Source: Pohlia nutans (lineage: Eukaryota > Streptophyta > Bryopsida > Bryales > Mniaceae). From it: 64,000 nt of DNA. Positions 1,846 to 63,643 of the stretch are shown here, one piece after another; the first letter of the stretch is position 1, and each line of letters begins with the position of its first letter. Location of the stretch: positions 32,698,253 to 32,762,252 of the forward strand of contig CM040087.1 of the NCBI GenBank assembly GCA_022496805.1, read 5' to 3'. Position numbers and translations under genes: made by a program. Under the pieces are notes generated by a model. It made no database searches, was not told the origin of the DNA, and saw only the letters and a program-made list of their open reading frames with translations.

Positions 1846-2349
1846 TAAGTAGCTTTCAATCATAAATTGACAACTTTAATATTATTATTTTTTGAAGGTT
1901 TTGATGATTTCATTTATATTTTTGCCCATTTATTTAACATAAAGATTGCCACTCCCAAAACCAAGTAAGAATAAATAAGATTCAGTAAAATCAAGTAAGC
2001 AAAAATTGACCTTAAAAAATTAGGCTGGTACGAAATGCTTTTGCATAAAGGTCACAATTAGGTGCATTTACCTTAGAGCTTACCAAACATGAAATGAGTG
2101 TGGCTAGAAGTCAATTGAATACAGAATTGCTCAATCTCATGTGCCCGTCCACATGATTGACTGGATTATTGACTACATTCATGAGCACCTAATGATATGT
2201 ATTGTGAAAACAATTCAGGTGACTGGCTACCAAAAGTTGACTGAAAGGACTAATTTGCCAAACATTGCTATTCCCTAATTGCCAAAGCCTACAACTCATT
2301 TCATTATGAGACTATGAATGCTTTTGGCCGGTTTGGTGTAGGACCTTAA

Positions 2350-3156
2350 CCCCTAACCGTCCTGACGTTCATGTTCTGAACGTTTTTGGGGACATTCATC
2401 TTTGAATGACTGTAACTTTTGCAAAACGTGTTCAAAAATAATGAAATTTTGCAAAAACTACCCGCATGATGTACAAAATGTGTTGTGAAATTTTTAGATC
2501 AATCCAAGATGAATTGAATTTTTGGTAATCATTTGAAAGTAGGTATCTTTTTTTTTGGACAATTCTGTGAATTTTGATGGCAACAACTTTGGAAGCTTGT
2601 ATCTCCTTCATCCCAAGTCCGTTTTCAATAAACCTTGCTGAGTTGAATTTCCCTTGAAGTTCACTTATCATGATAAAAAATTTCATGCCAATCCATGTTG
2701 TTATGAATGTTTGGAAGTCATTTTAGTGCACGGGTCTAGTTTGGACACTTTTTGCTTTTTGGTTCAAATGGGTCACTTTTCGGGCTACTTTTTGACATCG
2801 CAAGGCCATTTTAGGGCATATCAAAAAAATTCACGAGGCTTTTCTGGTACCAATGTGTTTATGTGATGATTTTGAACTACTTCATAGTTCAAAGTTTTTT
2901 CATTTGAGTAATTTTGAAAATGAATTTCACCTCTAATTGTGTTGCTAGGAAAATTTCAGCATCCTTTTTTAGCACTAAAACACTATGATCTTGCAATCTA
3001 TATGGCCAAATGACTCCAAAATTGATCCACATGATTTACAACATGTATGTTACAAGATTGTATGGTTGAGATTTCTATACCTCATTTACATTTAGACCTA
3101 TAACACGTCAAAAGCGATGATGATTTTAAGCCCAAAAAAGCTAGAGACCCTCAGGG
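2350..3156. mobile_element. TTAA-flanked element, family D (807 bp)
   Basis: TTAA at 2346-2349 is followed by CCCCTAACCGTCC, and CCCTCAGGG precedes TTAA at 3157-3160. The C-rich start, G-rich end and TTAA flanks match the other TTAA elements of the window, although the inverted match is poor. No second copy was found here, and the internal short reading frames resemble nothing I know. Confidence 0.5.
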
Positions 3157-3227
3157 TTAAACAAATATACCCTTAAGCCTTTAATGCCAAGAATAATGTT
3201 TAACAAATATTTCCTTTGTTGGGAATT

Positions 3228-3440
3228 ATTTCAGGGGTTGCACTCTACATTATGTTTGAGGATCACGTATGTTTATGAACCCTTCCAAAAACCTCTTCTA
3301 TATGAGAAGTTATATGTCTAAAAAAATTTGTATACAAATCTATTCCGTACTAAATATATGTTTATTGTAAGTATTTTTAGCTCTAGATATGTTTATTGTA
3401 TTGATACGTCATACGACAGTGTTCAAATTAACTCTTTGGT
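3228..3440 (+). repeat. Partial copy of repeat family J
   Basis: The block starting GGGGTTGCACTCTACATT and ending near GTGTTCAAATTAA matches, with gaps, the complete J element at 61312-61582 (reverse strand there) and the copy at 63250-63643. The right terminus is not recognisable, so it is a fragment. Confidence 0.6.
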
Positions 3441-5707
3441 ATCTAGAGTAATGTAGTTGCGTGCACTGGTTTTCAATATTTTTTTTCCACTGTGATTGAT
3501 ACTATCATAAATAGAATGAATTAAATTAAAAACTAATCATAAGTCAATTGTATTCTTAACTGGAGTGGAGAAAATTTTCCTAAATTAGAGAATCATCTAA
3601 TGGTGGAATTGCAAGATTATAGTATGTCTTTCAACCGTATAATGCACACTCAAAAATGAGATTTTGTGACTTCAAAGTTAAATAGAATTTAATATAAATT
3701 TTCTAAAATGAAAGTGACGTGGTTCAGCGATGCCCTGTGTCAACACCTCTCCATTGCAATCTTTCATTTCAAGAATGGACTGAGACATAATTATTGTGAA
3801 TTTTATAAAATAGAGACTTATATGTGTACGGTTTAGCCAGGACAAAAATTTACACGTAAAAATTTGAAAGAAGTTGGTACATTAATCAAGATCAGAATAC
3901 ATACACTGCCGGAAAGAACACAATCCAAAAAAAATGAAATAACAAACTCCCAAACACTAGATATACAACATAGTACATGTGTCGTATTTGTAAGTATTTG
4001 CTATTTTTTTAGGTGTTTGTAGTATTTTGGTATTTTGAACATGGTATTTTGATAGTTGCACAACTCTAAATTGAAATTTTATTTTTCTAAAAGAGGTGTA
4101 TGATAAATCTCCAAATATAAACTTCACAATTCAAAATCTAATTCTTCATGAATTTTCTGTTCTTTGCATTTTTGACACTCTAGTGATTAGGTGAGAATGT
4201 GGTCAGCTAGGCATTAAAGGGATAATATCCCTTTAGTGCACTCACGTCTACTTATACGTGTTTAGTACATTACCCCCCATCCTTTGGGGAAATATTTTAA
4301 AGTTGCTCTTGCCAAAAAAAAAGGTGAAAAGTGGACATGATGTTGATAATGTTACCTCTTGAAAGAGTGGATCTTTGAAGAAAACAAAATCATATTAAAA
4401 CCCATTTGAATTGCAACTCATAAGGTTTGAATTCATTTGAAATTTAAAAAGTCTTATGAGTTGCAATTCATAATTCTAAATTTCATGATAAAACCTTTTG
4501 AAAATCTTATGAGTTGCAAAATGGTATGCCTTGTTTGAAGTAGATAGGGCCACATCAAGTATAAAGCATAGGACAATTATTTTGGGACAAATATGCCCAA
4601 AAAAAGGACAATTATTTCCAAAAAGAGGGAGCATAGGAAAATTGAACATATTTTTCAACTATATTAATTCACTGCCAATCCATGCTTATGCAATGTGAAA
4701 AATCGACAAAAGAATCCAACATTGTATAGTTGAGATTATAACAATGATTCAAATTATATTCTATCTTTGAAAATGAAATTTTTGACATGCCTCAATTTAA
4801 TCATAAATGGAATGAAGAGAACATTTTCATGAATTATGAAACATCACTTTGACTATGCATAGTGTTGACAATTGAATATACAAGCTAAGGAAAGTGCCAA
4901 ACAAAGCATTTTAGAATTACCAAAGATTTATGAAGTGAAGGGGACTTCTTGATATGTAGTTGAGTCCATGATATTTTACGTGACATTCATCAAAGTAACC
5001 GATAATTACAAATAATCAAGTTATATAAAAGTGAAAAGGAAGTTAGATTTATACATAGAGGTTGATGAAAATGAATGGAAAAACATTAGTCTATAATTGG
5101 ACTATTGTTGCTTATGAGATAAGTTCATTCCTAAACAACGTCAACCCTTCTAATTCATGATTTGTAAAGATTTAGATCCGTTCATCAAACCTCAAATCGT
5201 TGGATCTATTGCCATTTGTAGGAATAGATTATATGTACATCTCAGAATTTCGAAGAAAATAAGTTTTGACTGCCCAATATTGTGCATTTGACTCAGTGGG
5301 AAAAGTGTTCAAACCTGTGGTTTTTTTAGAAAATTCGTGAAGTTCAATGACTCCAAAAATGTTGGGATTTTTAGAAGAGCTTGTGTGAGATGTGGAGAAC
5401 TTTTGACCATCAAAGTGGGAAAATATGCATTCACGGAACACTTCAAAAGGAGTCTTGCAATTCAAGGAGGTCAAAATTTCTATGAAATTGGGGCGCTTTC
5501 CTACTTGATATTTTATAAAATTCCATAAATTCAATTTGTGTGTTTTTGGTATGATTTTTGGCCCTCCATAACCGTAATTGCCCATAAGAAATTCTATAAA
5601 AAATTCACACTGCAAAAAGAGTGCTATAGATGAGAAAATCGATGTCGAATCTATACATCAAACAATTGTACAAACAAAGATTGAATAGGTTGTTGGGTAG
5701 TTGGGGG
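3441..5707. other. Intergenic DNA, no gene seen
   Basis: AT-rich, with chance reading frames only. A small perfect hairpin (AAAGGGATA/TATCCCTTT) lies at 4216-4235. The stretch ends in GGGGG immediately before the TTAA of element E1, which may be the right end of a further TTAA element whose start I could not find. Confidence 0.55.
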
Positions 5708-5711
5708 TTAA

Positions 5712-6613
5712 TCCCTAAACGTCCCAACATTCAAAAATTGGATCACGAATAGATTTAAAGCCTTATAACTTTCTCATACAAACTTGGATGATTGTCATCC
5801 AAATCACCTCTGAAAGCCTACTAACCCCTAAATGCCTAGAGCCCTCTCCAAATTCAGCAGTTTTGCAAAGCTGCATTATAAAATGCAATCTAGAGGGATA
5901 TTTTCAACTTGATACATGAATAGAAGCTGTACAATATGAATTTTAGATTCTATCCATACGATTAGATCTATGATTACTATTACGAGTAATTTTGTATAAA
6001 ATTTGAAACGTGAAATTCAAAATTATTTTGTAATTCAATTACGAATAAGATATTGACAATCTATAGATGAAATTCATTGTGATTGGTTGAAATGTAATAC
6101 TCTAAGTGTAGTGATTTTTGGAGATTTTTTGGTTGCTTAATTTTATGAGTTGACTTTTTTTTAGAACACATTTACACTGAAATCTTCAAAATTTTGGGTG
6201 AATCACTACAACATGAAATGAGGCATAAAAATTTCACAAATCATTCCCTTTCTAATCAAATCACATATACATGAAGCTAACTTCCCGTAGAATTTGCAGT
6301 AAAAATTCCACATTGCAAAAAGTGCATGACAAATGAGAAATTTTGAATGAAATCTGTACGTTGTCCAAAAAATGAACACTTTGGCAGTTAGGGGTTAAAT
6401 TCTCTACCAGTTACAGTAAACCTTTTGTGATGGGGAACTATTGATAATATTGGAGAGGCCTCCAACTACAAGTATGTCTAATTTGTTGGGTAGATTTTAT
6501 GCTTGCAATGGTCTTCTCATGTACACCTCATGTACATCTAAGCCATGCTAAATATCTCAGGCTAATATCTACTTCTTGTTGAAAGGGTTGGTACATTTTG
6601 GTACATTTAGGGG
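5712..6613 (+). mobile_element. TTAA-flanked element E1, interrupted by element A1
   Basis: TTAA at 5708-5711 is followed by TCCCTAAACGTCCC, and CATTTAGGGG precedes TTAA at 6614-6617. Without the A1 insertion (5825-6394) the element is about 330 bp. Its first 110 bp match, in reverse orientation, the stretch 55845-55958 (E2), which lacks the insertion and so supplies an empty site. Confidence 0.65.
5825..6394 (+). mobile_element. TTAA-flanked element A1 (570 bp), nested in E1
   Basis: It starts CCCCTAAATGCC and ends CAGTTAGGGG, with CTAA (a decayed TTAA) at 5821-5824 and TTAA at 6395-6398. Related copies are A2 (23807-24978), A3 (reverse, about 37236-37773) and A4 (40080-40515, shorter). Internal sequence is non-coding. 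The host repeat E2 has one uninterrupted TTAA at the matching place (55856-55859). Confidence 0.75.
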
Positions 6614-6617
6614 TTAA

Positions 6618-6985: not shown

Positions 6986-7020
6986 ACGTTGCTGGGACTT
7001 GGAGGTTTGGAACGCAAACA

Positions 7021-8190: not shown

Positions 8191-8929
8191 TTGATGCGGT
8201 ATTTAGACGTTTTCCCAAAGGTTTCATGTTCTGTATGCTGTGGCTTCTTTGAGTAGATTGCAGAATACATACTACTACTGGCCACTTTCATCTCGTATCA
8301 AAGTACTGATAGAGTTCGTCCTCTTCATTCACCAACATGGTATGTTTGCGGTTGATTTTCAGTCATGTCGCGCCTGCTTTTATTTGATGTTTGCATTTGG
8401 TTTGCCAATGAATAGTCTCGAAAGTATGGGTTGATGACAAACTTGTTGTAAGGTGTAGGGTTTAGTACTTGGACTCTGGCTTTGGCTTCCGTGTTTGAGC
8501 GAATTTTTGATTACTCTGGTTTATAGCATTTTATCGGTTGTGAATCTTCTGGCCAATTCACCAACAGACACTAAGGGACGTTGGCGAATTAATGCTGAAG
8601 AAGCAATAAATCAATAAATCGAGTATGTCTGTATCGTTTTAGGAGCATGGTCTAGGTACTCCTATATGTCGGATGTTAGATAGTCTCGTGAACTATTAGG
8701 GCCTCGAGCTGCGCAACTTGTTGTTTCAGACACCAAATCGACGTCATTCAGGGTTCAAAAGGTCGTCGATGATTATTACGAATACTATTCTCCAACAGGC
8801 TTGGAAATGAGGTTATGTTTCTGTCTGTCGTTGAACAGTACGTCACAGGATTTTGAAATTGTGCACCATATTTCAACCGGACATATAAATTTTATATGAG
8901 ACTGAGCCTCTTTGACTGCAGGTGGCAGG

Positions 8930-11900
8930 ATGGCAGTTCGGTGGAAAGCCGGTCAGAGGCGGAAGCGGTGGACGGAGCAAGCCATTTCTCTCCCGGCCAA
9001 TGTCCTTATTCAGCTTCAAGAAGCAGATGTATCAGTCGATTTGTCATCTGATGCGTCATTTACGAATTTTGCAAAGCAGCTTCTTTCGTTTGGAGAATTG
9101 CCATCTACGTTTGCTCAAATAGCGGCAACCAAAGCTCTTTCGGATGCATTGCTGTCCGTGCTGAAATCTAGTCCTATTTCAGCCCAGATAGCTCTGCGTC
9201 TTTATGTAGAGCTTTTATTTTTGCACAACTCTCGTCCCCTTCACCGTGGTTTGCTGACACCCTTATCACGTCTTTCCAAGGATTGGGAATTCAAAGTAGC
9301 GAACGCACTCAAGTGTTGTTGCTTGGAGTATGGTCAGGGCGGAATCAAGCACCAAAGGTTTTCTATAGTAGGAGTTGCAACATCTATCGCCAATCTTCCA
9401 CAGCCGGGCTTATTGAGAGGAGTATTAGAGATCTGTTTAAACATTTGTACTTTATCTTCTTGCTACGATGTAGCTTGGGTGCTAGATTACTCCAATGAAG
9501 GGGGGCGACCCCCTCCAAATACAATGGAGGATACCCAAGACGCTGTTGGCTCTCTTTACTACGTGCTGCAAAATTACTCTCAGTGGTTCATAAACGCGGA
9601 TTCGGATGAAAGTGTCTTATCGGACGGAGTATCAGTCGGGGAGACTCCAGGTGATCTCAGAATTTTAAATGACAAACCTGAAGTAAATATGGAAGGAAGG
9701 AATATGCAGTTGTGGTCAGGGTCTGGACCTGCGGTGTATGGCAGAGTAGTTAAAACACTCATAGATGTACTTCAAACCTCAGCACTGTCTCGAGACTGCG
9801 TGGTGGCCGCAGGGGTGGGACTATGTGCCGCAGCCTCATTCAAGAACTCTCAAGAGGAAGTTGTTTTATTACTGGCTAAATCAGTCTTTGCTGATTCTGC
9901 AGCTCAAAGCTTTGCTCTACTATCAATTGCGGATGGTGTTAGCGAAGGACCCAATAATTTTGGGATGTTGGACGCTGCTATTAGGGAACAATGCCAAAGT
10001 AGCCTCTCTGCTGAGGTCAGCAGATTTTCTGAGTTTGGCAAGCTATGTGTGTTGCGGGGACTCTTAACTGCCCTGCCTCGAGCAGCACTTAACATTCCTC
10101 TTCTTATTCGAGGGAATAACAGTTCTGCTGGGTCCTGTACTGGGAATGAAGGTGGCGAACCAGCGTGGAAATTATGGACAATTCTCTATGATGGAATATT
10201 GCCTGCTCTTTGTAAGCTCTCTGAAGGTTCTGTTGACAGCCACTTCAAGTTTCACACAGTGACAGCTCTTCAGATGTGCTTGCAGCAAATACGTGCTTCT
10301 GTGACCGGCAAATTAACCCTAGAAGCGCTCCAACGACTGGCCGAAGCAGCCAATATCCATAAAGTCTTGATTAGTGGATATGAGCCGTTGCCTTCAACTA
10401 TGATATCTCAAATTCTACAGATTGTGTGGAATAACTGGGAAGATCCTCTTACTCAAACCGTGAAGCAGGTGCAAGCTATCTTCGACCTCTTAGTAGATGT
10501 TCAGTTTGTGTTCGCACAACAGAGGGAAAATGACGACAATGGTAATGTTGAAGTCAGTAACGGGGAGTTTGTGAAGCAGATAGCATCAAATCTGCTAGCA
10601 GAGGGACGCTACAGAAAGGGCAAGTATGTGCCATTGGCCTCTTTAGCTGTGCGGATTGGTGCGGAAAAAATGCTGTCTATGAATCCAAACCTGCTATTTG
10701 ATACATTTCATGCACAGTCCGATGATGACGTGTGCTGTTCTGCAAGCTCATTTTTAAAAACATTTCTGGAGCGTCTCAAAGCGGATTGCTGGAGCTCTTT
10801 TGGTGGAGTTATGGAAGGCGATGTAGCCTTCAGGCGGCTTTGGATCCCTCCTCTACTGACCGTTCTTCTTTCTGGGAATTCCCGCCTTAGGACCAATCTT
10901 AATACATATGCACTACCTGTTGCCATGCGGATTGATCCGGACAGTGTGGTCTCCATACTGGCATTCATATTGGATGGAGCCAACAAATGGGGAGAAAGGT
11001 CCAGTGTCAACTGGGAGTATCTGAAGGGTGCTCCAGGCTTGCCTTCTCACCTAACAATGCATCAGCGTGTAGCAGCTTTGATATCAGTGTTAAAAGTGGC
11101 GCGTTCTTTGGTTCTTATCAATGGGGATATTGAACAAGAATTTAGCACGGCGAGTTCTGTCCCAAGGGTTTCTAATGGGGATACAACCTCATCTCTCAGT
11201 GAGGTTGTTGTTGTGAGGATTCAAAACGAGGTTGTTCAGGTCCCTCTATCATGGCTAGAGCAGGCGTTAACCCATCTTGATGATAGCTTACGGGTTGATG
11301 CGGCAGAACTGATATGCCTGAACCCAAAAACAGCATCCATGCCATCTTCATTGGAATTGAAAATGTTGAAACTCTCAATTCCCTTAAATATGAGGTGTTC
11401 ATCCACATCGTTTCGAATGCGATGGACTAGTCTCTTGAAGAATTTCTTCAGTCGTGTACGAACTGCAGCATGGAGGCAGCATAGGCTGGAAAATGAACCT
11501 CAGCCTGTGAAGGTATCCTCTTCTGCCATCAGTTATGGGGATGAGAAAAAGAAGAAAAGGGTTGCAGCAGCAGAGAAGCAGAAGAAAGGGTCCATCAAGC
11601 TTAATGAACATGAAGATGATGAGCAGGTTTCTAGGGATGGGGTGAGCATCGCTGAGATGCAAGAATTTATGCAGTTGTTGAGCCAGTACTTACTGTCTTC
11701 GCTCTATCCATCTGCCCCTTATGAGCGCAAAAACATGGCAACCGAGCTTTTGAATGCAATAATTGAGGTTTGGAGCCTATCACCTGAGACGAAGCCGATG
11801 GAATCGAACTCACTTGTTGCAGAGGGTTTTTCGCCCTATCAAGCTGGCCTTCTATCGGCAGAGGCGACTCTTGTGGTTGTTGGTGCAATTGTGGATAGCT

Positions 11901-23802: not shown

Positions 23803-24362
23803 TTAACCCCTAAATGCTTAGAGCCCTTTCCAAATTCGGCAGTTTTGCAAAGATGCATTATAAAATGCAATTTAGAAGGATATTTTGAACTTTATATATG
23901 AATAAAAGTTGTACATTATGAATTTTAGATTCTATTTGTACGGTTAGATCTATGATTGCTATAACAAATATTTTTTTATAAAATTCGAAACGTGAAATTC
24001 AAAATTATTTTGTAATTCAATTACGAACAAGATTTTGACAATCTATGGATGAAATTCATCGTGATTGGTTGAAATGTAATATTCTAAGTGTAGTGGTTTT
24101 TGGAGATTTTTTGGTTGCTTAATTTTATGAGTTGACTTTTATTACAGCACTTTTACACTGAAATCCTCAAAATATTGGGTGAATCACTACAACATGAAAT
24201 GAGGCATAAAAATTTCACACATCATCCCTTTTCTAATCGGATCACATATGCATGAAGCTAACTTCTCAGAATCTACAATAAAAATCCCACGCTGCTAAAA
24301 GTGCATGATGGATGAGATATTTTGGATGAAATTTGTACATCGTCCAAAAAATGGATGTTTAA

Positions 24363-24851
24363 CCCCTAGAAGCCCGAGGGGTATTGGACAAAACATAGAT
24401 GTGTTATAATATGTGCCTTCCATGTGTTTGATGAAGTTTGGTTCAATAGACAAAATGTAGAGTATCATCTCTACAAATTATCCGTACGGTCAAACTTCCA
24501 AAAATAACTTTAGATCATTTTTTAATGAATTTAATAGCATTAACCTATGAAAAATTGTATAAATTATAATTTTCATATTTAGAGTTCAAATTTTAGTATG
24601 ATTGGTTAAAGTTGGGCTATCTATTGTAAACTTCAAAAAAACAAAAGAAATGATGGAGGGATCATCATTACTTTCTCCAAATAGCAAATTTTGTAACACT
24701 AAGACAATGTTGAGGTGATCTACTTTGAAAAATTCTCCCGGGTGGAGTTTAACTCCGATTGCTATAATTGAAATTGGGTTGGAAAGTAGACTTGATGTAG
24801 TATTTTAAAATATTTTTTGTTTTTTCAAAAAAAAAAATAAAAAAAAAATAA

Positions 24852-24905
<54 letters not shown>

Positions 24906-24963
24906 CGGGCAGCCCATTAAATTCGGGCAGCGACCAGAAAATGATTGTTTGAGCTCTTAGGGG
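24363..24963 (+). mobile_element. TTAA-flanked element B1 (601 bp), nested in A2
   Basis: It begins CCCCTAGAAGCCCG and ends CTCTTAGGGG, with TTAA at 24359-24362 and 24964-24967. It is co-linear with B2 (44663-46203) and, reversed, with B3 (57398-57938) and B4 (58020-58556). It contains a long (TA)n run (24853-24902) and, near the right end, two GGGCAGC motifs shared with families C and F. Confidence 0.8.
24845..24903. repeat. (TA)n microsatellite inside B1
   Basis: About 25 uninterrupted TA units follow an A-rich run. Sister copies B3 and B4 have an A/T-rich stretch here but no such TA run, so it expanded after insertion or in this copy only. Confidence 0.9.
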
Positions 24964-25523
24964 TTAAGCAATTAGGGGTTAAAAGAGTCGTAGTTACTCT
25001 TGCCATTTACCCGCGCTTGACAAATGACATTCTTTTATCTTTGTTGCAATTACATTGAAATTACTAATATCACTAAATCCTAAGCCCAACAATGCAATCA
25101 AATTCTAAAGTTTTTAAAGTGGACTGCATTGAATTGAACTTTCTTAATGAGTTATGTATTTATTGTCCTTGTTCAAATTCATAAATCATTGCTCGTGTTA
25201 TCATTGGCTGATTGGCATTATTACATTATTTGAAGTTTGTATTTCTAACCAACCAAAAATCAACAATTAAAAAGACAAGAATTCAAACTAGTAAAAAACA
25301 AAATTTGTTAAAATAACAGTTCATTCTTGACCATTACAATATCTAGAAGTTGAAAAGATTATATTGGCAACATCAATAAAAAAAACTTGCTTCTTTCATT
25401 ACATGTTGTTGAAACACACTAATAATGTTTGAATTGATATAAATTGTGTGTGTTTTACACATTTTTTTGTAAGTGATGGAAATTTTGAGGTACTTAGTAT
25501 TTGATTTATACTCTAAGTCTTAA

Positions 25524-26462
25524 CCCCTAAAGGCCCTTAAAAGCCAAAATGGCTTTTTGTTGTTTCGGGCAGCTTAGATGGAAGGTCTAAATTAAGAATT
25601 TTGGACTATAATTTGGCGTGGGCGTGGTCGTACATACAAGGTGTGTGGGGTAAAAATTACAAAGTCAAATTCGGATTTTATAATTTTTTTATTGAAATTT
25701 TTGGTTTCAAGCCCAACTGGGGCAGAAAAAAACTTTTTATTATAATCATTTTTTCAATTTTTTTTTTGGAGACATGCTCTTCACCACATTTAGGCTCAGA
25801 ATTTGAAGTGACCCATGTTGATTATATTCTTGGCTTGACAAGGGCAGCCTCCAAAATAAAGAACAACAACCTCCAAGGTTTTTTGTAATTTCACATCCAT
25901 TTCTTTCGAAATTTGTCAAAATTTGAGATTTTGAATTATTTTAAAAATAATTTTGCCTAAAATTTATAAAATCATAGAAGTACCTAATCACCGTTCATTT
26001 TTTTCCAAAAATCAAATACAATTAATGTGATGCATGTTTCACCAAATTGCCATTTTTATACCTACTTCCGGAAATTAATTTGGATGAAGGTTTGAAACGC
26101 GTAATGAGTCTCTAAAATTTTGCATGAGCGTACCCAACTTAGTTATCTACGTGGAAAAAAATATGAGCAAAATTTTTGGAGTAACAATCTTCAAGTCCCC
26201 CTTTGCACTATGGAGACAATGCCTCCCAAGCAATGCCCTGAAAAACTTTTGCACAAACTTTGGATGTTATGATCTTGCAAATGATAAACATCCAACGGTC
26301 AATTTTTGAAACAGTAGCTATGAATAGGCTTAGGTACAAGATCTTACGGTTGGAATTCTAAAAGAAGTAAAAAAAACTTGGTTCACATCCCGGGAGTACA
26401 TAGAGGTAGAAAATCGCAGTTTTGAGGTTTCAAGCTCCCAAAAACACAAGGAAATTTAGGGG
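25524..26462 (+). mobile_element. TTAA-flanked element F (939 bp)
   Basis: TTAA (25520-25523) is followed by CCCCTAAAGGCCC, and GAAATTTAGGGG precedes TTAA at 26463-26466. Near the left end lie a small palindrome (AAAAGCC...GGCTTTT) and CGGGCAGC, features also seen in families C and B. A 95-codon frame (25601-25888) has no recognisable similarity. Confidence 0.65.
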
Positions 26463-26466
26463 TTAA

Positions 26467-35458: not shown

Positions 35459-37235
35459 CTGGATTTGGGGGCACACGAGTTTCAACTGGCGCTCAGCGTC
35501 ACATAAACTAAATTAATCTCAAGATGGATTTTTAGAGTGATGCCGTCAAAACAGCCTTCCGGAGATGGACAGAACAGCGGAGCGTCAACGTAAACAGATA
35601 TGTGCCTCACTTGTACAGAACTTGAGTCAGAAAAGATAGATTCACATTGTGCCAGTGTAAAATATTCACCCGTCAGCAGAAGAGGACTGCTTGTAACCAA
35701 TGGATGTAGCTTTCGGGAGGGTGGAACACTGATACACTTTCTGGCACGTACATTTGAAGTTCTAAATTATTTAGTAGCTACTGCTGATAAGTTCAGATAG
35801 AACCTATTGTTGGATTGTAATTTGTTATTTTCTCGCAGGGGAGGATGGGATCCCCCTGACCTGAACCATTTCAAAACACACGATGACAATTCAACCATTA
35901 CGTTACATACTGTGAGGCCATTACGTTACATACTGTATTGGAACTGTCATTGACTCGGATAGGGACATGTACAATGTTGTAATGTTGTGGGCTCTTATCG
36001 ATCTTCAACAGACAGAATGGAACTAGTTCTCGTAGTTTAGCTTCCAGCAACTATGAAGTGAGAAACAGGTCCTTCGTTCGTCGTTTGGAAACGGTACCCT
36101 TGCCGCGGACTGTAGTTCCAGTGAAAATCGATTTTCGCTTGGGTGTTCCTGCTTCACCTGTCGGACTTTGGGTCAAGCCTGAAACGAAGGGTTAGTAACT
36201 GCGAATCTCAATTGGAATAGAGTGTCTCAAAGTGGAAAGAAGCTTTCAACTCACATTACGCTCGTTTTCAGTTCAAGAAGACTGCAGAACTACCGTAGTA
36301 CCATAGCAGGTTCGTCCTGAAATAATTCTGAAAATAAAAAACGTAAAAATTAGAAAATTCTAAAGACAGAAAAACGAAAATAGGATAAATTAGTTTTTGC
36401 AATATTTTGTTATTTCTAAGCTATTTAAGGGCAATTTTACTGATTTTTTGCTAAAAAAACGAAAATTGAGAAATTCAGCTTTTGAGAGGCGAACCTTATT
36501 TTTTCCCAAAAAAAAAAATATTCGTTCGCCGGGTGACGAACTTGCTATGCTGTTACGATGGTCTATGGTGAATTGGAGAACAACCTAAAGCAAGGCCGTG
36601 TTCCGACAGGGGGTGTCAATCTTGTGACCTCCCCAATGTTGAAGGAAAACCCCACAAATTTTCCCAAGCCTAGAAGCTAGACCATGGGGACTATTCATGA
36701 AAAAAGCCTGTCATAGAGGTTTGTGTAGACCATGGGGACTATTCATGAAAAAAAGCCTGTCATAGAGGTTTGTGAGATTTAATAGCCTGGGTGTATTTAA
36801 GGTGATTGGGGGTTCAAGTTGTTAAATTGGGTTAAAAAAACCTTGATCCAATTTCTGTGGTGCTAAAATTTGAGCTATGAAGATTGCTACATAGGATGAG
36901 GAGAAGTTTGGGTTAGGCCTTAATATAAAGCTCTTCACTTCAATTTACCAAATTTGAGCAATTTTATTGGTTGAAATTTGTGAAGTTTGGATCAGGGCTC
37001 CAAAAAATCGAAGATTTACAATTTTGAAATGACTAATTTGATACTTTGTGTTGTGTAAAATATACTTTAGATGCATGCCCGAATTTTATACCACAAAAAT
37101 GTTTGTCAAAAAATAAATAAAATTGAATATGTAAAAGTCATTGTATAATTTGCTCAAAAGTGCCTCCTAAAAATAAAATAAAAAACCACGAGTTTTGATT
37201 TGTGCTTCTTGATTCTTTGGGGGTTTAGGGATTAA
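35459..37235. other. 3' flank of chromomethylase and gene-free DNA
   Basis: The first few hundred bases probably hold the 3' UTR. From about 36300 the sequence is AT-rich with no recognised coding content. GGGTTTAGGGATTAA at 37221-37235 resembles the end of an E-type TTAA element whose other end I could not find. Confidence 0.5.
36678..36774 (+). repeat. Recent 48-bp tandem duplication
   Basis: Two copies of the block TAGACCATGGGGACTATTCA...CATAGAGGTTTGTG lie at 36678-36725 and 36726-36774. They differ by one A in an A-run, so the duplication is young. Confidence 0.9.
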
Positions 37236-37773
37236 CTTTTAACTAATCGAGGGTCCATTTTTTAGATGATGTACAAATTTCATCCATGTTTTCTCATCCA
37301 TGATGCAATTTGAGTTGAGCGGATTTTTACTATAGATTTTATTGGAAGTTAGCTTCATGCATTTGTGATATGATTATAAAGGGGATGATTTGTGAAATTT
37401 TTATGCCTAATTTCATGTTGTAGTGGTTCATCCAAAATTTCAGTCTAAAATTGCTCTTAAAAGCAACCAAAAAATCTCCAAAAATCACTACACTCATAGA
37501 GTTTTACATTTCAACCCATCACAACAAATTTCATCGACAGATTGTCAATATCTTAGTCGTAATTGAATTACAAAAGAATTTTGAATTTTGAGTTTTAAAT
37601 ATTGGTGATAGCAATCATAGATCTAACGATATGGATATAATCTAAAATTCATAATGTACAAATTTTATTCATACATCAAGTTCAAAATATCCCTCTTAGT
37701 TGCATTTTTTAATGCATCTTTGCAAAACTTTTGAATTTGTAAAAGGCTTTAGGCATTTAGGGGTTGAACACTA
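37236..37773 (-). mobile_element. TTAA-type element A3, reverse orientation
   Basis: It reads as the reverse complement of A1/A2 from GGACCC-like sequence near 37250 to GGCATTTAGGGG at 37762-37773. The right flank is TTGA (37774-37777, one change from TTAA). The left end is worn; TTAA occurs at 37232-37235 and 37239-37242. A CACTA-like MITE begins 5 bp after its right terminus. Confidence 0.65.
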
Positions 37774-37875: not shown

Positions 37876-38218
37876 AATGACAATAATAGTATGTTGGAGC
37901 CATCACCCAAAAGGAAGTATCATAGATCATAATTATCTAGTGACACTTCTCTCCCACTTTTGAACTCGTATTCAATGTGATTTACAACTAAACCCAACAA
38001 TCGTGTTTCAAAATATTAGTTGCCACACCTTTGTTGCTATTCCTTTGTCTTGGTGAAGTTCACTTGTATATATAAATGGCCCTCTCTAATGACAAAGAAC
38101 GCGATTTGTTGACACTATACAGTGCCTTGCAATAAGTCTTGTAACCCCACTTTCAAACTTCACACTAAAACATTTATCACACCCACTACAACGGTTTGTT
38201 GACCATGAAATTTTGCAT

Positions 38219-38886: not shown

Positions 38887-39453
38887 AATGGGGTACTAAT
38901 CAAAATGTCGTTTTTGAATTCGCAGTGAGAAAAATTTCAATACGGCCAACTTTGAAAGCCTCCCGAGAGCTCAAAAGTTGATGTTCTATCACGAATTTTT
39001 TACCAAAGAATCATCTTTGAGTTAATTATATGTATGCCAAATTTCAAGGCCAAAAGATTGACCGAAAAAAAGTTATTCAAAATCTACCAACATTGGTAGC
39101 TGTGGAAATTTTTTCACTGCTGCCAACTTTGACAACCTCCCAAAGATTGATTTTTTTTTTTTGCCATAAAATTCTTGGAACAAAAACCTCTTTATGTTAA
39201 TACTACATATGATAAAAAATTTAAGGCCAAAATTTGACTTCTATGTTGGTAGATTTTGAATAATTTTTTTTCGGTGAATCTTTGGGCCTTGAAATTTGGC
39301 ATACATATAATTAACTTAAAGATAATTCTTTGGTAAAAAATTCGTGGTAAAACATCAATTTTTGAGCTCTCGGGAGGCTTTCAAAGTTGGCAGTATTGAA
39401 ATTTTTCTCACTGCGAATTCGAAAACGACATTTTGATTGGTACCCCACTGTAC
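38883..39453. repeat. Long inverted repeat (foldback) 2, arms about 215 bp, with a third internal unit
   Basis: Left arm 38883-39097 and right arm 39240-39453 are inverse copies (GTACAATGGGGTAC versus GTACCCCACTGTAC). It shares the four bases GTAC with foldback 1. The loop (39098-39239) is itself a diverged direct copy of part of the left arm (the GCCAACTTTGA...CCTCCC block recurs). The combined structure is bounded by CATGTAC and GTACATG. Confidence 0.85.
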
Positions 39454-40075: not shown

Positions 40076-40079
40076 TTAA

Positions 40080-40515
40080 CCCTTAAACATCCTCACCCCT
40101 CTCCAAATTGGGCAATTTTGTAAGAATGCATTATTGTAAATTATGAATTTTAATTTGATTATCAATAAGATATTAACAATCTCTAAATGAAATTTGTTGT
40201 AATGGGTTGAAATGTAATACTCTAGGAATAGTGATTTTTGAAGATTTTTGGATGCTTAATTTTAAGAGTTGGTTATTCAAGAACACTTTTGAGCCAAGAT
40301 CTTCAAAATTTTGGGTGAGGGTGAATCACTGCAAGATGATATGGGGCATAAAATTTACAAATCATTCCCTTTCTAATCAAGTTTGTACATGCATGAAGCT
40401 AACTTCCCATAAAATCTGCCATAAAATTTCACACAACAAGAAGTGTATGACAGATGAGAAAACATGGATGAAATTTGTACATTATGTGGAAAATGCATGG
40501 TTGGACCTTCAAGGG
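40080..40515 (+). mobile_element. TTAA-flanked element A4 (436 bp)
   Basis: TTAA (40076-40079) is followed by CCCTTAAACATCC, and CCTTCAAGGG precedes TTAA (40516-40519). The body matches A1/A2 with an internal deletion in the left third, so it is a shortened relative. Confidence 0.7.
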
Positions 40516-40519
40516 TTAA

Positions 40520-43197: not shown

Positions 43198-43661
43198 CTA
43201 AGGTAAAGGTACCTTAACCCTTAAACGACATATGCTTTCCAGATACCACACCCAAAATCTCTTTTAAATTCCATTTTAAGTAAGATTTTGTTTTTAATTT
43301 ACTTTGGCTCTATTCTATAAAAAGGTATAGATTTCTCTAAGGTACTCGGTTTGGCATTTTAAAAACCCCATTTGGTGCAATGGAGTAGAAGTTATGAGCA
43401 AAATTCTCCCAAACTATAACCAAGCCCGTGGTGCTTGCATTGTCGTTTAAGGGTTAAACCACCATGACACCTAAAACTACCAACTTCTACACCCTCTTTC
43501 ATTTCAGGAAGGAAATATTGACTTTCATTACATGACTTATGCATCAATTGCTCAAAAGTTAAGTCATGTATCGACAACTTACATTTCTTCCCTAAAATGA
43601 AGGAAGAGTGTAGAAGTTGATGGTTTTAGGTTCATGGTGATTTTAGGTACCTCTACCTTAG
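43198..43661. mobile_element. Hairpin MITE V, interrupted in its left arm by element G
   Basis: Ends CTAAGGTAAAGGTACC and GGTACCTCTACCTTAG are inverse; the arms continue through CACCTAAAACTACCAACTT at about 43467-43485 versus the inverse at about 43600-43640. Removing element G leaves roughly 224 bp, nearly all stem. The right arm has no insertion and gives the unoccupied sequence for the site of G. Confidence 0.7.
43218..43453. mobile_element. TTAA-flanked element G (236 bp), perfect 13-bp TIRs
   Basis: TTAA (43214-43217), then CCCTTAAACGACA; TGTCGTTTAAGGG, then TTAA (43454-43457). The terminal sequence is close to family C (CCCTTAAACGTCAA). It is inserted in the left arm of hairpin element V. 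Confidence 0.85.
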
Positions 43662-44205: not shown

Positions 44206-44662
44206 TAGCGAGTTCAAGCACCGAGGTCTTGCTGCCACAGCCATGTTCCACATTCTACCCTCGTTATCTCCATGTGCCCGTTGCTGGTTGGACGCGGCAA
44301 TGTGTAAGGACATGGCGACCATCTTGTCAATGAAGTTTAGGGGCAGTCACAGTCACTGAATATCACGCATGTATGCCGTGGAAATCCTTTGGTGCAATTC
44401 ACGCAATATTCGGTTCAAATGCAACAATGGTACAGTACTTTTTGCTGATGGTGAAGATGAGTTTATAGTAAGGGTGGGTTTATAGTAAGGGAGGGTAATT
44501 AGTGAAGGAGGGTAATTAGTGAAGGTGACAATGAAAATGTAAAATCAATGCAAAATAAAGATATCAGCCACTCAATAAAAATCTCAACCCTCGCTAATAT
44601 TGTGATTTTTCAAATTAGAGTGTGTCTTTGGAATTAGTAACACACGCACTCACTAGACTTAA

Positions 44663-46203
44663 CCCCTAAATGACAAAGGGGGTAAGGGCAAAACCTAGAT
44701 GTGTTATAAAATGTTACTTCTATAACTTTGATGAAGTTTGATTCAAAAGAGAAAATTTGAAGTATGATGTTAAGTATTCATATGTACGGTCAAACTTCCA
44801 AAAATAGTCTTAGATACTCATTTAATGAATTTAGAAGCATTTACAATTTAAATTTCACCAAAATTACAAATTCTATTTTTTAAAATTGAAATTTGATATG
44901 ATTGGTTAAAACTAGACATTCTATTCTTAACCCTTAAACGTCAAGGTAAGCCCCATGGGCTTATTTAAAGAGAATAATGAAGAAAAAAGTTGATTTTTTC
45001 AACCAAATCAAGCGAGACTTGGTGTGTTGGAAAGCTACTGAAAAAGCGATCTAGATTCCAAATTTTCGCCTCATTTGAGAAATTGTGGAATCGTTGGTAA
45101 GCAATCAAAGCTATCATGTTGAACAAGTTTTAAGATTGGGGCAACTGAAGTTCAGCAGTGCCGCAGTGCTATAGTGCTAGCCAACAGTGCACTGCAAAGC
45201 CGTTTTTGCCATATTTTATTTTATTTTATTTATTTTTCCTTCCCCAAAAAATTAGATGCCTTCCGGGCTGCCCCGTCTAGGCCCTCTTGACGTTTAAGGG
45301 TTAAATTCGAAAAGACAAAATTTTCAAATGAGAGAATATTAGTAGTTTTACAAAATAGTAAGTTTTATAACACTAGGATAATATTGAGGTCTTAGTCTTA
45401 AAAAATTTCCTTAGTAAATCTCAACAAAGAAAATGAAATGTATCAAACTACACTAGAATGTGATCTCTACCCCCAATTTCAAAAACAAAAATCAAAACTG
45501 GAAAAATATCATTTCTTGATCATGGGCAATCACTACTGGGTGATGGTCCAGTTGGGGTACCCAAAAAAGCTGCATTCGGGACAATTGCACTATGTGTTGG
45601 TGTGTCAAACAAACATATTTTTTAGTTTCAATAAAGTAAGACTTCATTAAATGTGATTTTAGTTTTCTACACTTATAACGTATCAAGGAAAAAAAATTGA
45701 TTACAATCAAAGATTTTTAAGTAATTTTATTTGATTTTTTAGTTGAAAAAGTAAGTTATGTCCCAATCACCTAGAATCCCTAAAATCAAACAAATGGAAT
45801 ATCAAAAAAATTAATTAATATTATTTTTGAATACGACCTACATCTAATTGTGTAGAGTACAAAATAATTTATTTTATCATTAAAAAAATTAATGAATTGT
45901 GCACATGCAACTTGCAAATCCCAAAATTCAGCAATTTTTCACACATTTATGAATGGATCCAAAAATAATATTTTTTTTAATATAAACTCTTTGAACATAT
46001 ACATTTTGATTCCATTGAGGTGCATGATTTTATTTTTTTCATTTTAGGGTCTTTTTACTTGATCAAAATGAGCAAATTAGGCAAACTTTGAGGTTTTAAA
46101 CAAAAATAATGTAATTAGTGTGTCCAAAAAGTGATACCCCAAGCTAATTATTGCCCTGCTATTTGGACTGCAACCAGAAAATGATCGATCAGTCATATAG
46201 GGG
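44663..46203 (+). mobile_element. TTAA-flanked element B2, interrupted by C1
   Basis: TTAA (44659-44662), CCCCTAAATGACAAAG at left; CATATAGGGG, then TTAA (46204-46207) at right. Left part and right end match B1; about 700 bp (roughly 45425-46140) between them has no counterpart in B1, B3 or B4 and may be another insertion or a longer parental form. C1 lies at 44931-45300. Confidence 0.7.
44931..45300 (+). mobile_element. TTAA-flanked element C1 (370 bp), nested in B2
   Basis: TTAA (44927-44930), then CCCTTAAACGTCAA; TTGACGTTTAAGGG, then TTAA (45301-45304): perfect 14-bp TIRs, 18 bp with the TTAA. Sister copy C2 (59296-59668) is about 90% identical by eye. Near the left end is the palindrome AAGCCCCATGGGCTT and near the right end CCGGGCTGCCCC. 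Confidence 0.88.
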
Positions 46204-46207
46204 TTAA

Positions 46208-48047: not shown

Positions 48048-54541
<6,494 letters not shown>

Positions 54542-54551
<10 letters not shown>

Positions 54552-54742
54552 TCAATTCTTCCTTAAACCCTAAACCCTAGAATGATCAATTCTTCCTTAA
54601 ACACTAAACCCTGAACCCTAGAATGATCGTTTCTTCCTTAAACCCTAAACCCTGGACCCTAGAATGATCAATTCTTCCTTAAACCCTAAACCCTGGACCC
54701 TAGAATGATCAATTCTTCCTTAAACCCTAAACCCTGGACCCC
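54542..54742 (+). repeat. 41-bp tandem array starting at the GH9 stop codon, telomere-like core
   Basis: About 4.7 units of CTAGAATGATCAATTCTTCC followed by TTAAACCCTAAACCCTGGAC. The first unit overlaps the last two codons and TGA stop of the GH9 gene (CTAGAATGA, 54543-54551). Each unit holds an AAACCCTAAACCC telomere-like/telobox core in the 3' UTR. Confidence 0.9.
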
Positions 54743-55539
54743 ATGATGATTTACTTATTTTTTTACTTAGGGGCTCATTGATGCACATGGACAAAGTAGA
54801 CTAGTTGTTCCATTTTGCCTCCCTCCCTTTCCAATAAGGCAAGGAGTGTGTCGGTGTTCGATGTCCTGAGCTGCTGGAAGGTGGCCGAACATGATGCTGA
54901 GAGGTTCTAAGTAACTTAGAGATAGAAAGACTCCTTAGTTACTTTTTCTTGCTTCAAGAAAAAACTAAGGACTGCTTGTAAAATAGAGAAATAAAAAATT
55001 ATATATTATTTGACTCTTTCGGGTCAACGAGATATATATACATTCATTCTATTATCAGAGTATTTTTGTCTTTTGGCAGACTTTAATTTGCTCTGTGCAT
55101 TCATGTCTCTGGGCTCCATCTGAACCTGAACCTGTGCACATCTGGCACATGATTGTGTTCCAAGTGGGCATTCGAATCTCCTGGCGGCCAGGCAAAAAAT
55201 AAGAAGCAGCTTCTGCACATTAAAATAATACATGGTCTTTGCAGGGGAGCTGCCTGAGTGCCTGCTCCTTTTTACAGTCAGCTTTGTCGAGTATCAATAT
55301 GACTCTGCAGGATACAAAAATCACTTATCAAACATTATGACCTTAGCCTACGTCATGGTTGGGTTTCGACGTACATTAGCTGATTGTAGTGTAAAAGTAC
55401 CACGTGTCATCTTATGGTTCGTGTGGGGTGACGTGTAAATTCGATTTTATTAACACATACGTCTTATGAAAATAACCCTGATTATTTTCTTATACTGTAC
55501 AATCTTTGAGCTGATCTCAACACCCTTGGAGAAGCGAAG
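54743..55539. other. 3' flank of GH9 gene, no further gene seen
   Basis: Probable 3' UTR remainder followed by non-coding DNA. A short reverse-strand frame (55024-55233) and a forward frame (55232-55438) have no recognisable similarity. Confidence 0.45.
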
Positions 55540-55543
55540 TTAA

Positions 55544-55958
55544 CCCAGATTCTTTTCATGCACAATCTTAAGGTGTGAGGTACCAAAAAGCTATTAGGTG
55601 GTAGGCACTCATTGAGCACCGTGCATGCTCTTAATAGGAAATGTCACACTTTTGGATCTATCTGTGCCATATGATTGTACTCTACAATAGAGCAGACCTG
55701 TACCCAAACAGCACAGCAACTCTGGGCAGGAACAAGACGGCAAACAAGACTGGGGAAATTTTAATAATCGGGGAGCCTTGTTAACCGCATCCGGCCTGCA
55801 TGTGGATAAGGCCGGCAAATAGAGGGTGAGCCGTATTAACATATTGGTAGAGAATTTAATAGGCTTTCAAAGGTGACTTAGATGGAGGTTGTATGAGAAA
55901 GTTACAAGGCTTTGAATCTGTTCTTGATTCGGTTTCTAGATGCAGGGACGATTAGGGA
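55544..55958 (-). mobile_element. TTAA-type element E2 (uninterrupted relative of E1)
   Basis: The right part (about 55845-55958) is the reverse complement of E1's start (GGGACGATTAGGGATTAA at 55945-55962). TTAA at 55959-55962 closes it; TTAACCC at 55540-55546 is a candidate other end, less certain because it does not resemble E1's. At 55856-55859 it has the single TTAA that is occupied by A1 in E1. Confidence 0.55.
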
Positions 55959-55962
55959 TTAA

Positions 55963-57393: not shown

Positions 57394-57397
57394 TTAA

Positions 57398-57938
57398 CCC
57401 CTAAGTGACCGATCAACCATTTTATGGTCGCTGCCCTTTTTTACGGGCTGCCCGAGATGAAAAAAAACTTTTTTTCGAAAATAAAAAATATTTTCAAATA
57501 GGAAATCAAGTTTACTTTCCAACCCAATTTGAATCATGTCAATCGGAGTTAAACTCTATCAAGGAGAAATTTTCAAAGACAAAGACTTGAACATTGTCCT
57601 AGTGTTACAAAACTTACTATTTCGGGAAAGTAATGATGTTCCCTCTTTCTAAAATTTTGCTTTTTTGAATTGTAGAATAGAATGTCTACTTTCAACCAAT
57701 CATACCAAATTTCAAATTCTAAAAATAAAATTTGTAATTTTGGTGAGTATTCAACGATAAATGCTTCTAAATTCGTTTAATGAGTATCTAAAACATTTTT
57801 TGAAGGTTTGACTGTACGGATAATTACTAAACATCGTGCTTCGCATTTTCTCTTTTGGACCAAACTTCATTGAAGTTGTAGAAGCAACATTTTATAACAC
57901 ATTTAGGTTTTGCCCTTACCCCCTCTGTCATTTAGGGG
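57398..57938 (-). mobile_element. TTAA-flanked element B3 (541 bp)
   Basis: TTAA (57394-57397), CCCCTAAGTGACCGATC at left; GTCATTTAGGGG, then TTAA (57939-57942). It is reverse-oriented relative to B1 and B2, very similar to B4. Includes GACCATTTTATGGTC and CGGGCTGCCCG near the left end. Confidence 0.88.
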
Positions 57939-58019
57939 TTAACAGTGTTTTTCCTGTGTTTTTCTTTTCTTGAAGCCTCACTTGCCACGTAAAAAAAAAT
58001 TGGGAAAGAATAGAGTTAA

Positions 58020-58556
58020 CCCCTAAGTGACCAAACGACCATTTTATGGTCGCTGCCCTTTTTAACGGGCTACCCGGAATGAAAAAAAAAAATGCAAAAA
58101 AATGAAAATTTCACATAGGAAATCAAGTCTTCTTTCCAACCCAATTTGAATCATGTCAATCCGAGTTAAAGTCCATCAAGGAGAAATTTTCAAAGACAAA
58201 CACCTCAACATTGTCCTACTGTTACAAAACTTACTATTTCGGGAAATCAATGATGTTCCCTCTTTCTAAAAAATTTATTTTTTGAACTTTAGAATAGAAT
58301 GTTTAGTTTCAACTAATCATACCAAATTTCAAATTCTAAAAATAAAATTTTAAATTTTGGCGAATATTCAAGGATAAATGCTTCTAAATTCGTTTAATGA
58401 GTATCTAAAACATTTTTTTGAAAGTTTGACCATACGGATAATTACTAAACATCTTGCTTCTCATTTTCTCTATTGGACCAAACTTTATCAAAGTTGTAGA
58501 AGCAGCATTTTATAACACATTTAGGTTTTGCCCTTACCCCCTCTGTCATTTAGGGG
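58020..58556 (-). mobile_element. TTAA-flanked element B4 (537 bp)
   Basis: TTAA (58016-58019), CCCCTAAGTGACCAAAC; GTCATTTAGGGG, TTAA (58557-58560). Same orientation as B3, only 77 bp away, and highly similar along its whole length. It is followed directly by repeat H. Confidence 0.88.
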
Positions 58557-58560
58557 TTAA

Positions 58561-59291: not shown

Positions 59292-59295
59292 TTAA

Positions 59296-59668: not shown

Positions 59669-59854
59669 TTAAGAGGTGTGTGTATTCATGGCGGTGATGG
59701 TATGGGACTCTTTTTTGCTAAATAGGCCAACCAGTGATAGAAAATCAATGAAATTTTTGCTCAAAACATGAAAAATTGCAAAAAACAAAAATCTATGTTT
59801 AAAAATATGTTCAATTTGTTTTGGAAAATAAGGTTCACCAGATGAAATATTTGT

Positions 59855-62239: not shown

Positions 62240-62399
62240 AGCAAATCACTTGTAGCCTCTCCAAAACACCAACTAAAAAAACTTGTAGCACAAGAAAGCC
62301 TCAAAACATCACTTGCATTGAAAAGATTGTGGTGTGCACAACTTTTGTGCATATTTAGTTGTACACACCACTTCCAGATCTTTCGGTCTGTGGGTCCTC

Positions 62400-62609
62400 C
62401 AAGTAGCTAACTTTGAGGACATTTTCATTTGTTGCATGCTATGTGTTATTCTTACTAAATTTGGTCAAAACCGTATCACAACTACATTGTTCAATCACCG
62501 CCTCAACCATTTCAAAATTCACTATCTTTGAGTTTTCCGCAAACTAATCTCTCTATGGACGTGACTGCCAAAAAGTAGAGAAACGAAAATTGATCCCTTG
62601 GAATTATAG
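62400..62609. other. Short gene-free stretch
   Basis: No recognised feature; T2's outer terminus should lie nearby but no AGGTGGTTACC end is visible. Confidence 0.4.
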
Positions 62610-62878
62610 AGCAAAAAAGAAGGGGTGACTTGAAGGCCATCCTGGAGTGTCAAGTAAGGGATCCCATGGAAATGAGACGCGTGGCAGATGAGGTAAACGG
62701 AAAAGGGGGTTTTGAATTGGGGTTCAAAAAAAAGAAGGCATCATTTTTGGACTTTCAAAACTTTGCAACCCCAAATTTTTTTAGGCTCCGACACACACTT
62801 TTTTTTGGAAATTTGAAGTACCGTTCACACAAACTACACCCCACTCACCCAATGTTTATTCACTTTGCGGATAACTCT
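62610..62878 (-). mobile_element. MITE family L, degraded copy 3
   Basis: The right end TTTGCGGATAACTCT followed by ATT matches the L terminus, and the inner sequence (CCACTCACCCA, GACACACACTT) follows L2 in reverse. The left end is not recognisable. Confidence 0.55.
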
Positions 62879-62885
62879 ATTTTCT

Positions 62886-63249
62886 GAACACTTTGGCTGA
62901 CCACTGTATAGTAATTTTGTTCCATTCTTCACTACCATAGCGAGTTACAACTATTCGTTTTGTTTTTATCCACAATGTATAACACGTGATGCAAGCGAGG
63001 TGTTTTTGTACTCAGAGAATTGAAGAACCAGAGGACCAAAAAACATTCCTAACCAAAATGCAGTGGTGGCAAAAAGTGGTGAAGATATTATCCAAGTCTC
63101 TGAAAACCCGGGACATGCTTTGAAGGCAGCTCTTCCTCATGATTCTTGCCTAATGCCTTTCAAGATTGCTACCACAGGAGAAAAAATTCTTCCGCTTCTT
63201 CACTACCAATACAATCTCCCATTCTCCCTGTGCATCGCCATGAATGTTG
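62886..63249. other. Gene-free stretch with a short open frame
   Basis: A frame at 63063-63311 reads smoothly for 82 codons and ends inside repeat J2; it faintly resembles the LCIA.NVARG segment of receptor kinases, which is not enough to call a gene fragment. Confidence 0.35.
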
Positions 63250-63643
63250 CCCGGGGTGCACTCTACATTATGTTTGAGAATCACGTGCGTTCATGTCCCT
63301 TTTGGTTTTAAATGTGTTTATTGAATGTATACGTAATACGGCAATGTTCAAATTAACCTTAAAGTTCCAGAGAGCCCTTTCTGACTAGTATTATACAACA
63401 ATATTCCATTGTATTTGGCACGGTTCCACACCTCTTATGGGTTTAAGATCAAAAGTGAAGTTCAAATTCACGTCAACATGATTTTAATGAGCTATTGGGG
63501 CCTCAATTTGGAACTTCCTATTTACAGTAAATGTCAAATAAATGCCAACGTATCTACTATTCCCATCAGCCCTTTAAGGATTAATACCCCTTCTATGCAG
63601 GCCTCCTAGGGAATGTTGTTTCAATGCAACCCACCCTTGCTCG
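63250..63643 (+). mobile_element. Element J2, interrupted by TTAA element K
   Basis: Begins CCGGGGTGCACTCTACATT and ends near ATGCAACCCACCCTTGCTCG (J1 ends TGCACCCCCCGAG). The order matches J1 with some deletion; K splits it at TTCAAATTAA/TTAATACCCC, which is TTCAAATTAATACCCC in J1. Confidence 0.7.
63357..63580. mobile_element. TTAA-flanked element K (224 bp), nested in J2
   Basis: TTAA (63353-63356), CCTTAAAGTTCC at left; CCCTTTAAGGA, TTAA (63581-63584) at right. The ends are inverse over CCTTAAAG. The sister element J1 shows the empty site with one TTAA. Confidence 0.75.

Follow-up and report, generated by a model that had tools for sequence, protein, structure and literature searches.

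The question raised by the locus described here is whether a plant genome can hold a piggyBac-like transposon population. The natural record of piggyBac lies mostly in animals, and the transposon is in standard use for work on animal genomes. The locus (hereafter the window) is a stretch of 64,000 bases from the Antarctic moss Pohlia nutans (contig CM040087.1, positions 32,698,253 to 32,762,252), in which an initial inspection of the letters (the sequence-only reading) had listed 16 elements with TTAA outside and CCC...GGG inside and had taken them for a piggyBac-like population in a plant genome. Coding relatives elsewhere in the genome, genome-wide TTAA counts and the moss host support this proposal, and the refuting conditions that this reading had named were decided in its favour. 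From these sequence comparisons, the 16 elements are very probably non-autonomous transposons of the piggyBac superfamily, mobilised in trans by the transposases of autonomous relatives.

TTAACCC and GGGTTAA each occur 16 times in the window. Markov models of order 1 to 3 (60 simulations each) give a mean of 5-8 for both motifs together and a maximum of 14, and element ends account for 12 of the TTAACCC and 13 of the GGGTTAA copies. All 16 listed elements, in families A to G and K, could be paired end to end (Table 1; coordinates include the flanking target words). Combined, they cover 8,755 of the 64,000 bases (13.7%), with sizes, minus nested inserts, from 228 bp (K1) up to about 1.2 kb (B2). 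Nesting was seen in three elements (B1 inside A2, C1 inside B2, A1 inside E1), and the extents first proposed had to be corrected for it, the A element at 23807 running to 24982, the B element at 44663 to 46207 and the E element at 5712 to 6617. TTAA is found at both flanks in 14 of the 16, as first described; A1 (CTAA on the left) and A4 (TTGA) each have one altered flank base, and A4 also departs from the CCC...GGG description, one decayed end reading CTTTTAAC instead of CCC. The term miniature inverted-repeat transposable element (MITE) is loose here, as the inverted repeats are just 12-14 bp or so long and imperfect in the coding elements. The window indeed lacks a source gene: a search of its 1,581 stop-to-stop frames of at least 25 aa gave no transposase remnant (best E 0.32).

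The genome outside the window does carry piggyBac transposase. A search with the PF13843 profile, one of the checks suggested in the sequence-only reading, returned 1,305 first-look candidates; 116 of these, on contigs C1 to C22, were scored, and all 116 lay above the curated cut-off (best E 1.6e-81), with no match in any of 14 control genomes. Another suggested check, for long copies with the same kind of ends, likewise led to elements that encode this transposase. Ends were paired by eye, and 18 of 24 loci read at 9-10 kb were found to be bounded by TTAA and C-rich ends. Among 20 ten-kb loci, 14 have the transposase flanked by an end on either side, at a spacing of 5.0-6.1 kb (in L023, 8.0 kb), and all four further nine-kb loci, from other subgroups, were paired at 4.7-6.3 kb, L051 with a second candidate right end. 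CCC starts six of the eight ends of these later four elements and all 28 ends of the first 14, the latter count being partly by construction, since those ends were sought as TTAACCC or TTAACCT.

Open frames in the coding elements reach 1,104 aa, and DDE_Tnp_1_7 was the sole Pfam domain in each of three proteins analyzed. Only two PDB entries matched by sequence, piggyBat of Myotis lucifugus (9c0f, 1.1e-26) and piggyBac of Trichoplusia ni (6x67, 7.8e-26). D206, D294 and D409 (in DE, DN and GVD stretches) are invariant in all 10 aligned copies and align to the piggyBat stretches; we read them as the probable DDD catalytic triad, the exact correspondence being our own reading. Equally invariant in the 10 copies is a cysteine-rich C-terminal tail of the form C-x2-C..C-x2-C..C..H (C505, C508, C516, C519, C529, H534). 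Over eight pairs of copies, the ratio of nonsynonymous to synonymous substitution rates (dN/dS) was 0.10-0.12 in three diverged pairs, silent sites were saturated in four pairs, and L010/L019, which are nearly identical, gave 0.99, on very few changes.

Window elements and coding elements were compared at their ends. The first 14 coding elements supplied 28 ends, none of them from the window, and a matrix of 16 columns was built from these; in its consensus TTAA and CCC are followed mostly by YTAA, and G stands at +10 in all 28. Applied to the window, it found 30 sites of at least 14 bits (30 simulated windows: mean 0.4, maximum 2), with one end below 10 bits in D1, A4, E2 and K1. With motif count and matrix both beyond chance, the listed elements are real. 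By BLAST, the A1 right end aligned with the 5' end of L020 (75% over 108 nt) and with that of L022 (70% over 121 nt). Sequence beyond the terminal 12 bp was compared between both ends of 15 elements (30 in all, A4 left out) and 36 coding ends, using 200 shuffles per end and values uncorrected for the 30 tests. No shuffle was as good as the observed match for the A3 right end (L028) or for one end each of B1, B3 and B4 (L049/L052), one of 200 was as good for the C2 right end (L050), three for the A1 right end (L022), and six (0.03) for the F1 left end. The match of the A2 right end traces to the nested B1, and the B2 ends had no significant match among the 36. Among the listed places, nearness of end matches to PF13843 places, judged by eye, gave no coding parents of B and C; four further loci then supplied L049/L052 for B and, suggestively, L050 for C. 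Judged by these likenesses, coding relatives are identified for families A and B (8 of the 16 elements by family) and suggestively for C, while the six elements of D, E, F, G and K are tied to piggyBac by shared ends and target only. The idea that related transposases mobilise, or mobilised, the families is supported for A and B and suggestively for C, no coding relative having been found for the other five.

The TTAA target was confirmed at genome scale. TTAACCCYTAAMYGYC occurs 41,497 times in the genome (2 for the reversed-pattern control) and VTAACCCYTAAMYGYC, with another first base, 1,373 times (control 25), so that the outermost base is T in 41,497 of 42,870 ends; a two- or three-base target is therefore excluded. 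TTAA precedes 1,515 of the 1,603 genome copies of the C end and 427 of the 461 copies of the B end, as the sequence-only reading would have it. These counts are less biased than the 20 B copies that were read: all 20 have TTAA on both sides, as do coding elements, partly by construction, because the copies were found through ends that contain TTAA. Three empty sites were compared with paralogues. The flanks of C1 in B2, joined by one TTAA, align gap-free over 252 nt (81.7%) to window positions 57817-57566 in B3; the site of B1 in A2 was compared with A1; and the site of the autonomous L020 element aligns ungapped over 302 nt (94%) to a paralogous L013 repeat. At each empty site there is a single four-base word, which in the paralogue differs from TTAA at one or two positions.

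Several observations weigh against assigning the 16 elements to piggyBac. The words at the empty sites are TGTA, TTTA, TTTG or TTGA, with intact TTAA in none, and target duplication therefore rests on length and alignment; of the other alignments across the C1 site, four of six have 10-19 gaps and one of six has three. Among the coding loci, a pair of ends could be assigned to all but six of the 20 ten-kb loci (the six being L013, L016, L021, L024, L026 and L027). Two of the 36 coding ends start otherwise than with CCC (CCT at the right of L050, CTC at the left of L051), and many copies contain stops. The C1 right end, the same end as that of C2, reached 0.17, without a significant match, and the remaining subterminal ends, including the opposite ends of the matching A and B elements, had no significant match among the 36 coding ends. 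Finally, families D, E, F, G and K had no convincing coding relative among the 18 coding elements; only their terminal bases and TTAA agree.

The copies are numerous and many are alike. The 41,497 exact ends correspond to about 20,700 element-equivalents, assuming two ends per element. Of the 30 window sites that score 14 bits or more, the strict pattern recovers just 6 (genome mean 3.8 per 64 kb versus 6 here). The true number is therefore probably larger by a factor of several, and the elements perhaps occupy 5-10% of the genome; both values are extrapolated from a single window. A search with B3 gave 6,559 candidates, of which 40 were scored; its 44 matches include 42 that are full-length, 40 of these at 95-100% (one being B3 itself), one at 93% and B4 at 89%. 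An old, dead population whose transposase has long been inactive could account for the stops in many copies and for the decayed ends in the window (A1, A4, E2, K1), but we consider it unlikely. The 20 B copies that were read, chosen among the best-scoring, are 95-99% identical to each other, and L010 and L019, on different chromosomes, share 99.4% identity over 5,037 bp and both retain a 1,004-aa open frame; no match was found between their flanks.

Kolobok and Sola3 elements also duplicate TTAA, and some of the families could in principle be of these kinds, the five without an identified coding relative (D, E, F, G, K) being the candidates. Judged from the termini and the PF13843-based matrix, with no search aimed at Kolobok or Sola3 transposases, this is very improbable. 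Kolobok has a different transposase. Its termini are 5'-RR and YY-3', as described in the accessible part of PMC9587614, which also states its TTAA duplication, whereas the window ends start with CCC. Moreover, the matrix made from PF13843 elements recognizes one D end and both ends of F1, G1 and E1 (scores in Table 1). Tourist-like (PIF/Harbinger, target TAA/TTA) or Stowaway-like (Tc1/mariner, target TA) MITEs with merely apparent TTAA flanks would be a familiar explanation, as such MITEs are common in plants and a Tc1-type transposase piece is present in the window (42133-42693). However, a TA or TAA target would leave the outermost T free, in conflict with the counts given above, and coding elements with these ends carry a piggyBac transposase; for the common ends, this explanation is refuted.

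The window belongs to a land plant, the moss P. nutans. It contains a THADA/TRM732 gene with several exons (8912-16635, forward strand), whose joined frames have a database protein as their closest match (98% identity) and are 84% identical to the protein from Ceratodon purpureus, another moss, with 56% of the query covered in both cases; liverwort proteins stand at 46-48%. The arrival of an animal or protist piggyBac in a plant assembly through contamination or faulty assembly, a suspicion nourished by the mostly animal record of piggyBac and by closest relatives that are database proteins without organism assignment, is refuted by placement, since the elements share a 40.8-Mb contig with the moss THADA gene, the 116 scored transposase copies are spread across contigs C1 to C22, and elements are nested within each other.

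Homologue searches found 58 and 179 proteins, and the named ones among the matches listed (at least 120 of the 179) were from animals and Phytophthora. No named land-plant homologue was among the matches listed, in a search that scored only word-sharing candidates and in which plant proteomes masked for transposable elements would show none. The nearest homologues are database PF13843 proteins (P0001, P0122 and others; sources lgn, jgi, ena) with up to 52% identity, which are probably environmental. In a tree of 52 hand-picked rows, 10 Pohlia copies and 19 of these database proteins form a 100/100 group, within which the Pohlia label changes at least four times; the sampled animal and oomycete proteins fall outside it. 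PGBD4-like proteins of molluscs, fishes, mammals and arthropods are homologous over the domain (about 27-37% identity) and lie outside the 100/100 group. Viral contigs were considered as carriers and rejected (48 pattern matches, no relatives).

The T. ni piggyBac, related by sequence to the Pohlia transposases, has TTAA, DDD and the C-terminal cysteine-rich domain in common with them. Its element is about 2.5 kb long, versus 4.7-6.3 kb as a rule in Pohlia, and its chain has 594 aa, whereas the Pohlia frames, which include a long N-terminal part rich in Arg and Gly, reach about 1,100 aa. piggyBat, the best PDB match, with its catalytic stretches aligned, is a 578-aa chain from a mammal host and was outside the rows of the tree. 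The domain order of piggyBac and its use of DDD are described in the accessible part of PMC7351741, where the quoted end oligo also shows that the T. ni ends, like those in Pohlia, start with CCC.

The sequence-only reading had held piggyBac to be little documented in land plants. The record is indeed thin, but not empty. In the accessible parts of the literature, two papers mention piggyBac elements in plants in passing, a plant review lists the superfamily, Elliott and Gregory count PiggyBac among the superfamilies present in all groups studied, land plants included, a fern table gives 1,230 small PiggyBac pieces, a grass table has a single piece, 75 bp long, and one review includes PiggyBac in its list of superfamilies that give rise to MITEs in angiosperms. 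The accessible main text of the P. nutans genome paper (PMC9247546) reports 23.68% DNA transposons, and the word piggyBac is absent from it, an indication that moss annotation may leave a large class of repeats without a name. A described piggyBac family of mosses was not found in the literature searched, which covered few subscription papers. What is new here is host, scale and lineage; the mechanism is already known. A wider proposal, which in our estimate from the sequences has somewhat less than an even chance, is that a land plant houses a deep piggyBac clade that the searches met in no named organism, made up of four or more lineages that live side by side and still transpose. This clade would have given rise to tens of thousands of non-autonomous copies, would occupy several per cent of the genome and would in part make its own landing sites by insertion into the TTAA of its own ends. 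A moss with intact, near-identical autonomous copies and many non-autonomous ends makes a plant-native piggyBac testable and offers a natural experiment on the expansion, nesting and diversification of a TTAA-targeting cut-and-paste element in a plant.

By analogy with the piggyBac enzyme (accessible part of PMC7351741), a transposase encoded by the autonomous relatives of 4.7-6.3 kb (8.0 kb in one of the 18 measured) would act in trans, bind both ends, cut by way of a 4-nt hairpin, integrate into TTAA and be capable of scarless excision. Shortened copies would also be moved by it, provided that their terminal and subterminal sites are retained, and could multiply. The population would further be expected to land in its own ends, each of which bears TTAA, and so to give rise to nested and abutting arrays. 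Insertion in the TTAA of another such end was seen for 6 of the 20 B copies, for 3 of the 14 coding elements and for 2 of the 16 elements in the window. The baseline is 56 of 1,056 other TTAA sites (5.3%), which gives binomial P values of 0.0005, 0.035 and 0.2, respectively. Across the whole genome, a search with a palindromic pattern counted 329 TTAA sites flanked by exact ends left and right, where independence would predict about 100-160, from an estimated 2.6-4.2 million TTAA sites. This two- to threefold excess may reflect only uneven accessibility of TTAA sites.

Individual arrays were also observed. Two B elements stand head to tail with one common TTAA at L032 (1-1216; G000:C15:6385305-6386398). 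In L043, L046 and L025, insertions are found in the inner TTAA of another end (CCCTTAA type) and split the host end 7-8 bases from its TTAA start. On the reverse strand, the coding element L014 contains an A-like stretch (element positions 3979-4320; 77-82% identity to A1 and A3), which opens with a TTAA end directly behind the transposase frame of this autonomous copy and is probably a nested A element.

Table 1. The 16 elements of the window, with matrix scores of their ends where reported
Element	Position	Strand	Length (bp)	End scores (bits)	Remarks
D1	2346..3160	+	811 between TTAA copies	left 24.3, right <10	ends CCCCTAACCGTC / CCCTGAGGGTCT
E1	5708..6617	+		17.3, 16.7	contains A1
A1	5821..6398	+	578		left flank CTAA; probable non-autonomous relative of the L020/L022/L028 piggyBac group
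A2	23803..24982	+			B1 nested near right end
B1	24359..24967	+			nested in A2; right end matches L049/L052 left end beyond terminal 12 bp
F1	25520..26466	+	943	26.9, 16.8	TTAA at both flanks
A4	37232..37767	-		21.6 (at 37767), other <10	flanks TTAA and TTGA (37767)
A3	40076..40519	+	440		right end matches L028 left end
G1	43214..43457	+	240	23.2, 23.2	
B2	44659..46207	-		24.0, 17.4	contains C1; aligns with B1, B3, B4
C1	44927..45304	+			nested in B2; uninterrupted site seen in B1, B3, B4
E2	55540..55962	-		13.6 (at 55962), other <10	weak at one end, which reads TTAACCCAGATT
B3	57394..57942	+	545		left end matches L049/L052 left end over 60 nt
B4	58016..58560	+	541		left end matches L049/L052 left end, as B3
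C2	59292..59672	+	377		right-end 22-mer 1,603 times in genome; right end resembles that of L050
K1	63353..63584	+	228	11.1, <10	weakest of the 16; ends CCTTAAAG / TCCTTAAAG

Some elements adjoin others. The left TTAA of E1 is common to the end of a further element (GGGGTTAA to 5711), and the TTAA of A4 to the end of another (37235). Without B1, A2 measures 575 bp, close to A1, and its last 60 bases align to A1 gaplessly; B2 without C1 is still longer than the other B copies. The unpaired motifs are TTAACCC at 10313 and 11267 (both within the THADA frame 8912-12631), 19837 and 40007, and GGGTTAA at 5711, 31736 and 36835. Subterminal palindromes were considered as a family trait and dropped because the best stems (mean 4.48 over 60 ends) are close to those of random stretches (4.39 over 2,000).

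Other repeats also occur in the window. The Tc1-type piece mentioned above is a 186-aa forward-strand frame of Tc1/Tc3 type in the moss genome (HTH_Tnp_Tc3_2, 1.3e-14). A fold-back structure at 38218-39453 consists of two adjacent, near-perfect inverted repeats (253-nt arms, 95%; 211-nt arms, 94%). Four TTAAACCCTAAACCCT units lie at 54563-54760, three of them spaced 41 bases apart (54638, 54679, 54720); they have a telomere-type look, score 10 bits as ends and were excluded from the element set.

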